Origin: Clostridiales bacterium
GTDB lineage: Bacteria; Bacillota; Clostridia; Christensenellales; Borkfalkiaceae
Assembly: GCA_015055965.1 (NCBI GenBank)
Contig: SVHG01000008.1
Coordinates: 1-64,000, forward strand
Direction: 5' to 3'
DNA length: 64,000 nucleotides
Part shown: positions 45,890-51,246 of the stretch, piece by piece
Layout: each line of letters begins with the position of its first letter
Position numbering within the stretch: position 1 is the first letter of the stretch
Notes under the pieces: model-generated
Database searches by the model: none
The model's input: only the letters and a program-made list of their open reading frames with translations
Told to the model about the DNA's origin: nothing
Translations under genes and position numbers: made by a program

Positions 45890-45925
45890 AAGGACCTTCG
45901 CTAAAATGCGAAAGGCCCTTTTTCT
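45890..45925. terminator. terminator between glyS and spo0A
   Basis: CCTTCGC and GCGAAAGG pair inside a longer AAAGG/CCTTT stem. T-runs on both sides serve the convergent genes. Confidence 0.7.
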
Positions 45926-45976: not shown

Positions 45977-46732
45977 TTATGATATGCCGTCTAATAACAA
46001 ACGGTCTGCAATTAGCGCTATAAATTCGCTATTAGTAGGCTTTTCGTTCTCGCTATATATTTTAACGCCGAATAAAGCGTTAAAGCTTTCTACCCTGCCC
46101 TTGTTCCAAGCAACCTCTATTGCGTGGCGAATAGCCCGTTCTACCTTGCTTGCGCTAGTACCAAACTTTTCGCCAATAGTAGGGTAAAGCTTTTTCGTTA
46201 TACTGTTTATTATTTCCGGCTTAACAACGGCTAGCTTAACGCCTTCCCTTAAATAACCGTATCCCTTAATATGCGGTGGAATACCCATTCCAATAAAAAT
46301 ACGGCTAATTTTCTCATCTATACTCTTGTTAGCCTTTTCACGCTCTAATACCTGTTGAGTTTTTATAAGCGATATCGAGCTCATGCCCAACATTCTCTCT
46401 ATTAAAGCGTTATAATCAACAGGCTTAATCATATAATAGCTTGCGCCTGCATCTACTGCGCTTTGCACGTGCTCCATTCCGGAAAGCACGCTTACTACTA
46501 TACACTTGGTATTTGGCGAAGCTTCCTTCGTTCTTTTTATAACGGTAATGCCGTCACTTCTTTTTAAGGTTAACGAAAGAACTAAAAAATCGGGTTTTTC
46601 TTTTGCAATAAAATTAAAAGCGACTTCAGCGTCTGCAGTATACCCCACTATTTCAAAACTACGTGATAAACGCTCTGCACACTCTAGCGCTTCTTCATCA
46701 CTTGACTGTAAAACGACAACTGATTTTTGCAT
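45977..46732 (-). CDS. spo0A: Spo0A homologue with degenerate receiver
   Basis: 251 residues. The C-terminal DNA-binding domain is a clear Spo0A domain: IPPHIKGYGYLREGV, ITKKLYPTIGEKFGT, SKVERAIRHAIEVAWNKGR and KPTNSEFIALIADRL. The N-terminal receiver keeps the fold and the lysine (K103 in MIKPVD) but lacks the acidic site. The pair equivalent to D10/D11 of Bacillus reads S10-S11, the phosphoacceptor D56 position is S53 (VLSLTLKRSDG), and the switch Thr is Ser. It therefore cannot be phosphorylated in the usual way. Tandem TGTCGAA-like boxes lie upstream. It is the master sporulation regulator by homology; control must be by level, ligand or partner. Confidence 0.92.
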   Translation of the reverse strand: MQKSVVVLQSSDEEALECAERLSRSFEIVGYTADAEVAFNFIAKEKPDFLVLSLTLKRSDGITVIKRTKEASPNTKCIVVSVLSGMEHVQSAVDAGASYYMIKPVDYNALIERMLGMSSISLIKTQQVLEREKANKSIDEKISRIFIGMGIPPHIKGYGYLREGVKLAVVKPEIINSITKKLYPTIGEKFGTSASKVERAIRHAIEVAWNKGRVESFNALFGVKIYSENEKPTNSEFIALIADRLLLDGIS

Positions 46733-46767: not shown

Positions 46768-46795
46768 ATTATAGCATATAAAAAAATAAAGTAAA
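46768..46795 (-). promoter_or_regulatory. spo0A promoter
   Basis: On the minus strand TTTACT, 16 bp spacer and TATAAT (46768-46773), 36 bp before the ATG. Confidence 0.6.
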
Positions 46796-46825: not shown

Positions 46826-46866
46826 GGTCGAATTTTGTTCAAAATTGTCGAATTTTGTTCAAAATT
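46826..46866. promoter_or_regulatory. tandem Spo0A-box-like repeats
   Basis: The 20 bp unit GTCGAATTTTGTTCAAAATT is repeated exactly twice (46827-46846 and 46847-46866), and most of it occurs again at about 46934-46953. The second unit contains TGTCGAA (46846-46852), the core 0A box. It lies about 50-90 bp upstream of the spo0A promoter and suggests autoregulation. Confidence 0.55.
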
Positions 46867-46916: not shown

Positions 46917-47208
46917 TAAATAAAATTGCAAAACGAATTTTGTTCAAAATTCATATTATTTGTAAAAAGCTTAATTATTTTGCTTAATTTTAAAGGGTAA
47001 AAAACTAAAAATTTTTAAAAGCGCGCACTAAAAAATATTATTAATAAATTTTCTTTATTTTATAAATTCTATTGTGATTTTTTAATTGCGTTGTATAATC
47101 TTATTATTAAATATACAGCTATATCGCAACGAGTAGTTGTTTTTACTTCTTAAAAAATTTAACCGTTATTTATGTGACCTCGCCTTAAAAAAACAAAACT
47201 CCCAAGCC

Positions 47209-50202: not shown

Positions 50203-51246
50203 ATGGATTTTTTTATGAGCGTTATCACCGTTAAAACAATAATTTTAAAGCCTTCTAGCAAGGGAAGTAATAATCTTACTAATGGGGGCGGAATTTTAAA
50301 GATTGATGCTTTAAAAAAACAAGCCACCCTTTCCCTTCTTTCGTTAAGCCACGATAACGGTAAAGAATGGTTACTTGTTCTTTACTGCGAAGAAAGGGGT
50401 TTTTACAACTTTAAAATTAACCCTTCGTTAAAAAAACAGGAGTTTTCATTTTGCAAAGAGCTTATTGATTGTAAAGGGGTAACCGCCGTTATAATTGATG
50501 CAAGCTTAAAAGAACCGGCCCCCGTTTTACAAGGAAGCTTTGGTGAAAGCGCAGTTGATTTTAAGGACCTAACGGAATATGCGAAGAGCGTTAAAAACGA
50601 GGAAGAAGATATTATTGCAACGAAGCAGGCTAACGCGCCTTGGACAAATGAAAGCGAGCAAACCGCTTACCACCAAGCCAACGAAGAAAAATTAGCCAAA
50701 AACCAAAAGATAGAAAATACTGATTATAACGACGAGGCTATTGCCGAAAGCAATTATTTTTTAAAGGACGATAAGGAACAAGAAAATGCAACCCTTCATA
50801 ACCAAAATGACGGAACTGAACACTCAAATAGCAACCAAAGCACGCAAGAAGAAAATTGCCATTCTTCACAGGGATATGAAGCTTCGCCTTGCGATACTCA
50901 ATGCCAAAAAGAGCCCGAATATTATTCCTCAATAAAGGATAAACTGTTGCCCCTTTTTGAAAAATACCCACCTATAAGCGCGTTAACGGCTATTATACCT
51001 TGCTCTAGCTGGGTTAAAATACCGTACGGCGAAAACAAGCATTACGCCGTGGGAACGGTTAAAGAAAACAACGTAGTTAAATATTTATGCTATGGTGTAC
51101 CCGGTGTATACGGCGTAAAACCAAAGGGGTTTGAGAGCTATTCTTACTTTATCCCCCTTAGTCTTTTTGATTTACTTGGCGACGGCTACTGGTGCGTTTT
51201 TCAGGAAGCGGAAAGCGGAAAAAGAGTTTACTGCAACCCAAATTAA
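50203..51246 (+). CDS. two-domain protein of unknown function with acidic linker
   Basis: 347 residues, or 343 if the in-frame ATG at 50215 is used; neither start has a strong Shine-Dalgarno site. The N-terminal domain (about 1-120) is mixed alpha/beta. Residues about 125-245 are low-complexity and acidic with many Asn and Gln. The C-terminal domain (about 245-347) contains LFEKYPPISAL, IPCSSWVKIPY, YLCYGVPGVYG and YFIPLSLF, which I recall as a widespread unassigned clostridial domain. Cytoplasmic. Function unknown. Confidence 0.75.
   Translation: MDFFMSVITVKTIILKPSSKGSNNLTNGGGILKIDALKKQATLSLLSLSHDNGKEWLLVLYCEERGFYNFKINPSLKKQEFSFCKELIDCKGVTAVIIDASLKEPAPVLQGSFGESAVDFKDLTEYAKSVKNEEEDIIATKQANAPWTNESEQTAYHQANEEKLAKNQKIENTDYNDEAIAESNYFLKDDKEQENATLHNQNDGTEHSNSNQSTQEENCHSSQGYEASPCDTQCQKEPEYYSSIKDKLLPLFEKYPPISALTAIIPCSSWVKIPYGENKHYAVGTVKENNVVKYLCYGVPGVYGVKPKGFESYSYFIPLSLFDLLGDGYWCVFQEAESGKRVYCNPN

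Follow-up and report, generated by a model that had tools for sequence, protein, structure and literature searches.

We suggest that the spo0A gene in the window (the whole stretch of 64,000 nucleotides analyzed here, from a Clostridiales bacterium of the family Borkfalkiaceae) is a genuine spo0A passed down by vertical descent, that the receiver it encodes has turned into a pseudo-receiver, and that its product works without phosphate, with autoregulated amount as the probable means of control. Taken as one statement, this is a reading toward which we lean modestly. Judged from its sequence, the protein is Spo0A by descent and by its DNA-binding half, and is not a phospho-activated one. Extended to the whole clostridial family, which is large, uncultured, and of gut type, the prediction is that spores, or a sporulation program, are directed by a never-phosphorylated Spo0A; that the kinases acting on Spo0A have disappeared, in some small genomes together with all other histidine kinases; that the decision is made by the amount of Spo0A or by a new ligand that the pseudo-receiver binds; and that similar losses have occurred more than once in the order. 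This wider picture we place a shade below even.

Identity of the gene and residues of the receiver

The positions of the gene and of its regulatory features are given in Table 1. Its DNA-binding half is, as had been claimed, that of a textbook Spo0A: the C-terminal half of the protein matches the Pfam domain Spo0A_C (PF08769) end to end (1-104 of 104 positions, 131 bits), and the whole protein scores above the cutoff of the NCBI Spo0A equivalog model (TIGR02875, 212.8 bits versus 200). The closest solved structures are the Spo0A DNA-binding domains 1lq1 and 1fc3. The receiver half is still recognized by PF00072 (51.4 bits, with a cutoff of 30.2) and matches receivers of known structure at the sequence level. 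A search for a second, intact Spo0A, which would have made this gene a paralog, yielded no other Spo0A_C domain in the source genome (2.06 Mb, 96% complete), and hence spo0A is a single-copy gene.

Table 1. Features of the spo0A locus and their positions in the window
Feature	Position	Strand	Basis
spo0A gene with predicted pseudo-receiver, 251 aa	45977..46732	-	ORF, Pfam and TIGR02875 matches
Receiver-like domain, approximately aa 1-118 (PF00072 match at aa 25-113), predicted to lack phosphorylation chemistry	46379..46732	-	Pfam, alignments
Gln9-Ser10 codons, at the metal-binding Asp10-Asp11 positions	46703..46708	-	Alignments
Ser53 codon, at the phospho-acceptor Asp56 position	46574..46576	-	Alignments
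Spo0A_C DNA-binding domain, aa 142-245	45998..46309	-	Pfam
Perfect 0A box TGTCGAA upstream of spo0A (coding strand TTCGACA)	46846..46852	+	Motif match
0A box GGTCGAA with one mismatch, 20 bp away from the perfect box	46826..46832	+	Motif match
Half-site-like TGTTCAA between the two boxes, 10-bp pitch	46836..46842	+	Motif/alignment
TGTTCAA resembling a half-site, 10 bp past the perfect box	46856..46862	+	Motif/alignment
Sigma-70-type promoter-like TTTACT - 16 nt - TATAAT, TG before the -10	46768..46795	-	Consensus match only
Terminator-like stem-loop downstream of spo0A	45895..45914	-	Consensus match only

Alignment of the receiver with B. subtilis Spo0A and some 150 related sequences places Ser53 at the position of the phospho-acceptor Asp56, Gln9-Ser10 at the positions of Asp10-Asp11, Ser81 at that of the switch Thr, and K103 at that of the conserved Lys. 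That is, three of the five phosphotransfer residues (DD, D, T/S, and K) are replaced, namely at Q9, S10, and S53, while S81 and K103 remain. An earlier note on this DNA had read Ser at the phospho-acceptor position and a retained Lys, and the alignment bears out both. It had also described the acidic pair as lost to Ser10-Ser11; both true positions are indeed non-acidic, but the residues are Q9-S10, the reading being one position off register. Finally, it had listed Ser in place of the switch Thr among the changes. Ser81 is present, but it is not a lesion, and was rejected as such, since Ser is the commonest residue at this position (48/68) in ordinary Spo0As of the same order; these 68 proteins, picked from families with ordinary-looking receivers, are a yardstick and not a random sample. 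With both Asp56 and the metal pair gone, normal phospho-control of this Spo0A looks impossible, as the note had concluded. Further, the Pro at D+4, which is found in 65 of the 68 ordinary Spo0As versus 4/55 in the window's family, is replaced here by K57, and the T+1 position is occupied by a bulky Val.

The receiver might still be phosphorylated elsewhere, by Ser/Thr phosphorylation of Ser53 or on a displaced Asp. The source species does have Ser at the site, and atypical response regulators such as RitR are phosphorylated on Ser/Thr (cited in PMC4395418). However, the residue varies, being S, A, and S within the genus and G, D, S, N, E, or A across the family; the metal pair is gone as well, and histidine kinases are missing altogether from some relatives. 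Ser53 was rejected as a conserved phosphorylation site because it is not conserved within the genus, and we consider phosphorylation of another residue quite improbable.

Distribution of the loss and constraint on the receiver

The Spo0A_C domain is present in 338 of 398 genomes of the window's family. Among 55 full Spo0A sequences from 16 genera of this family, Asp56 is absent in 42, with G in 15, S in 10, N and E in 8 each, and A in one. The Lys is retained in 50 of them, but the acidic pair, Asp56, and Lys occur together in only two: of the 13 sequences that retain Asp56, 11 have no acidic partner or no Lys. Two genus mates of the source species carry Q-S-A and Q-T-S at the acidic pair and Asp56. 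The loss is therefore lineage-wide, which was the question that an alignment of related Spo0As had been proposed to settle. A loss confined to one species was rejected given these genus mates and the other Spo0As of the family, and a base-calling error is excluded, as the two separately assembled genus mates also lack the sites. More generally, we assign a negligible probability to an artifact or a decaying gene, whether through faulty sequencing or as a dying copy accompanying an intact Spo0A: evidence for it was sought and none was found, the gene is present in a single copy with its frame open in three separately assembled species, its dN/dS is far below 1, and the upstream array of 0A boxes is retained.

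In a sample spread evenly over 30 families of the order, ordinary receivers are kept in the families denoted f3, f12, f13, f15, f16, f28, and f29, and decayed ones are found in f22, f8, f18, f9, f25, f26, and partly in f6 and f10. On a tree of 146 Spo0As the sequences cluster by family, the window Spo0A grouping with those of sister families, and the window's family forms one side of a branch, with an SH-aLRT support of only 68. Its neighbors on the tree are f8 and f22 (the forks have supports of 89 and 88), both without intact sites. The state of Asp56 changes at least nine times on this tree, though the number of separate losses is rough, since the tree was made quickly and has several long branches. 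In three f22 proteins (L149, L151, and L155) the receiver is degraded, with the pocket Lys or most landmarks unrecognizable, and the DNA-binding domain is intact.

Within genera of the window's family, dN/dS of the receiver is mostly 0.05-0.3 (the highest value is 0.44), compared with 0.03-0.55 for ordinary receivers of related families and 0.00-0.12 for the family's DNA-binding domain; all these ratios are approximate, as dS is near saturation at high divergence. Mean receiver identity is 0.35 in the window's family versus 0.38 in the ordinary families. Because its dN/dS is like that of ordinary receivers, the receiver of this family is, by this sequence measure, constrained by purifying selection and not decaying.

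That the receiver is kept whole under purifying selection, though receiver-less Spo0A_C paralogs occur in the family, makes gating by a ligand or a partner the main rival to control by amount. The pseudo-receiver would then be gated by a small ligand, the redox state, or a protein partner that sets dimerization, so that the activity of Spo0A and not its amount would be controlled. Such gating is favored by the near-constant retention of the K-3 Tyr and of the pocket Lys in the family, and both partner-dependent and direct mechanisms have been discussed for other pseudo-receivers (PMC12632262). However, the neighbors of spo0A in the window, encoding MreB, Maf, and a class II tRNA synthetase of the glycyl type, include no candidate partner gene, and the acidic sites carry different replacements in different genera, a pattern that does not point to a single shared ligand pocket. 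We regard gating as a serious but doubtful alternative. Elsewhere in the window, positions 50203-51246 encode a 347-aa protein with no Pfam match.

0A boxes and sporulation genes

The 0A array of the window stands upstream of consensus -35 and -10 elements, although promoter-like matches in this region occur in numbers near the mean of shuffled sequences. In the window's family, TGTCGAA ranks above every other 7-mer in the sequences preceding spo0A, being found in 34/53 sequences and in 14/15 genera, versus 2.6 sequences (maximum 7) in dinucleotide-preserving shuffles. It is oriented one way in 38 of 41 cases, and in the alignment the boxes are flanked by weaker TGnnnAA half-sites with a 10-bp pitch. 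The same motif precedes spo0A in other families, including those with ordinary receivers (42/95 versus 3.4 expected). The pattern suggests that Spo0A molecules sit in tandem on the DNA and control their own gene, and that the DNA-binding half is still in use. The earlier note had proposed that sporulation may be governed by the amount of Spo0A. The conserved array supports this indirectly but is no proof of it: being ancestral and common to relatives with ordinary receivers, the array argues for an active DNA-binding half. The idea of a unique, new autoregulatory promoter was rejected on the same ground.

The palindrome GAATTTTGTTCAAAATTC was considered as an operator of a second regulator and set aside: aligned across the family, it keeps the 10-bp register of the 0A boxes, as would a weaker half-site for Spo0A. 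A third copy of this palindrome lies at positions 46935-46952, some 70-90 bp farther upstream than the 0A array, with no adjacent TGTCGAA.

Candidate sites were also found upstream of sporulation genes. In the source genome a perfect 0A box lies 94 bp upstream of spoIIE, and such boxes precede spoIIE in 4/16 family members (0.44 expected, with none of 200 shuffles as high) and spoIIGA in 3/21 (0.6 expected, p 0.035). Occurring in a minority of members, these boxes would lend weaker support to a downstream link.

The spoII and spoIV genes, for which a search had been recommended, are present. The clusters spoIIAA-spoIIAB-sigF and spoIIGA-sigE-sigG-ylmC are intact in the source genome, SpoIVA scores above the cutoff of its sporulation-specific equivalog model, and SpoIIE is full length, although, as in almost every genome tested, its score stays under the model cutoff. 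SpoIVA and SpoIIE were found in nearly all sampled members of the family, the exception being SpoIVA in genus g2. In the g2 genomes G005, G013, G016, and G028 SpoIIE is kept, Spo0A is kept in most, and matches to SpoIVA are fragmentary or none. The reverse case is G445 (f28, genus g45), which has an ordinary receiver and 19 HisKA matches, with no SpoIVA and no full SpoIIE.

Genes for the α/β SASP (PF00269) were not found in any of the 22 family genomes and were found in only three of 14 other genomes tested; overall they were not found in 33/36, with SpoIVA and SpoIIE mostly present. This absence may call into question whether the program ends in ordinary spores, and in the order as a whole either the protectant of spore-core DNA may have been replaced or the spores may be atypical. 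It is not directly linked to the change in the receiver, since SASP are also missing from families with ordinary receivers.

Because the SASP genes were not found, a new role for Spo0A has to be weighed as the second rival: Spo0A would no longer start sporulation, and the early spo genes would be reused, for instance in asymmetric division or vegetative gene control, with no ordinary spore formed. Such reuse of the program would also agree with genus g2, where Spo0A and SpoIIE occur with no convincing SpoIVA, and with the fact that no cultured spore-former of the window's family was identified. On the other hand, a SpoIVA above the curated cutoff of a sporulation-specific model and the intact sigF and sigE-sigG clusters are not expected under it, and the SASP absence does not track the receiver. 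We consider reuse for a non-spore role unlikely.

Histidine kinases, proposed control, and known pseudo-receivers

A search for Spo0A kinases had also been recommended by the earlier note. The source genome encodes five histidine kinases, four of the HisKA type and one DcuS-like, but each adjoins its own response regulator and no unpaired kinase was found in this genome, although at 96% completeness a single kinase may have escaped the assembly. Among Clostridia that have no relay, the kinases known or presumed to act on Spo0A are orphans (PMC11210211). All 18 kinase loci from 12 other genomes of the family are paired as well; however, so are two control loci from f29, which has ordinary receivers, and thus pairing alone is not discriminating.

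The genomes G255 (window's family, 96% complete) and G421 (f25, 100% complete) are more telling than kinase pairing. Both encode Spo0A, SpoIVA, SpoIIE, SpoIIGA, and SpoIIAB, and neither has a histidine kinase: every HATPase match is GyrB/ParE, MutL, HtpG, or SpoIIAB, named from the N-terminal sequences as read and not by a family search. There is no HisKA match in G355 and none in two of the 83 family genomes that are at least 95% complete. Further, the f25 genomes G461 and G487 have only HATPase matches of the same sizes as those of G421 and seem to be without histidine kinases.

We propose the following scheme. The pseudo-receiver, which keeps the receiver sequence signature, the pocket Lys, and the switch-path Tyr but has no residues that bind Mg2+ or accept phosphate, would hold Spo0A in the dimeric DNA-binding state, or let it reach that state, without phosphate. 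Dimerization would be constitutive or DNA-driven. Spo0A, probably active as made, would bind 0A boxes in tandem, among them the ones in the spo0A promoter. The output would be set by the amount of Spo0A from the autoregulated spo0A promoter, perhaps with a contribution of other regulators of this promoter, and not by histidine kinases. The likely target is the core sporulation program, namely the sigF and sigE modules, spoIIE, and spoIVA. Activity without phosphate, this mode of dimerization, and control by amount are what we infer to be most likely.

In the described sporulators, Spo0A is activated by phosphorylation via a relay or orphan kinases (PMC6136694, PMC11210211). The window Spo0A shares with Spo0A of Bacillus and Clostridia the domain order, the DNA-binding domain, the 0A motif, and the tandem boxes at its own gene, but it lacks Asp56 and Asp10-Asp11, and its genome lacks a detected unpaired kinase. 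Regulators with pseudo-receivers or aspartate-less receivers include ChxR, HP1043, FrzS, and the plant pseudo-response regulators (PMC12632262, PMC4395418). The marks of the class are, above all, loss of the acid at the second metal position, and also loss of the D+4 Pro and a larger T+1 residue (PMC12632262). Its control has been called a mystery, and the indirect mechanisms discussed for it, namely constitutive dimers and control by synthesis or degradation (PMC12632262), are ones that the proposed control by amount fits. The window receiver resembles this class in being PF00072-positive with the catalytic residues gone, a non-acidic second metal position, no D+4 Pro, and the K-3 Tyr kept. 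It differs from the known pseudo-receivers in belonging to the master regulator of a developmental program and in being spread over a family and parts of several others.

Receiver deletions and Sad-type alleles of B. subtilis Spo0A are active without phosphate. The window Spo0A would be like them in that its DNA-binding half can work without phosphate; those alleles, however, are laboratory-made, whereas here the protein is natural and its constrained receiver is full length.

No natural example of a Spo0A pseudo-receiver is given in the two papers on the class, since Spo0A is absent from PMC12632262 and occurs only as a mutant in PMC4395418. In the open literature, subscription papers being outside the scope of the search, no earlier description of a naturally occurring Spo0A that lacks the phosphorylation site was found. 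Pseudo-receivers are known and Spo0A is known, and a natural Spo0A pseudo-receiver appears to be unreported in that literature. To our knowledge, Spo0A phosphorylation is regarded as the gate through which all endospore formation begins. If the proposed scheme is true, this gate can be rebuilt on principles other than phosphate, and the family supplies a natural set of pseudo-receivers for studying the class. There is also a consequence for annotation: standard models label the protein without a phosphosite as an ordinary Spo0A, and metagenome surveys use the presence of spo0A to mark a potential for sporulation (PMC11536998).

Finally, Spo0A_C proteins of other forms occur in the order. Extra receiver-less proteins of about 110-139 aa, amounting to stand-alone DNA-binding domains of Spo0A, accompany a full-length Spo0A in the family genera g13 and g17 (L072, L073, L074, and L075) and as the second matches in G234, G403, and G430. 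The f25 genomes G421, G443, G461, G487, G498, G509, G520, and G531, of 0.8-1.2 Mb, carry three to five Spo0A_C matches each.
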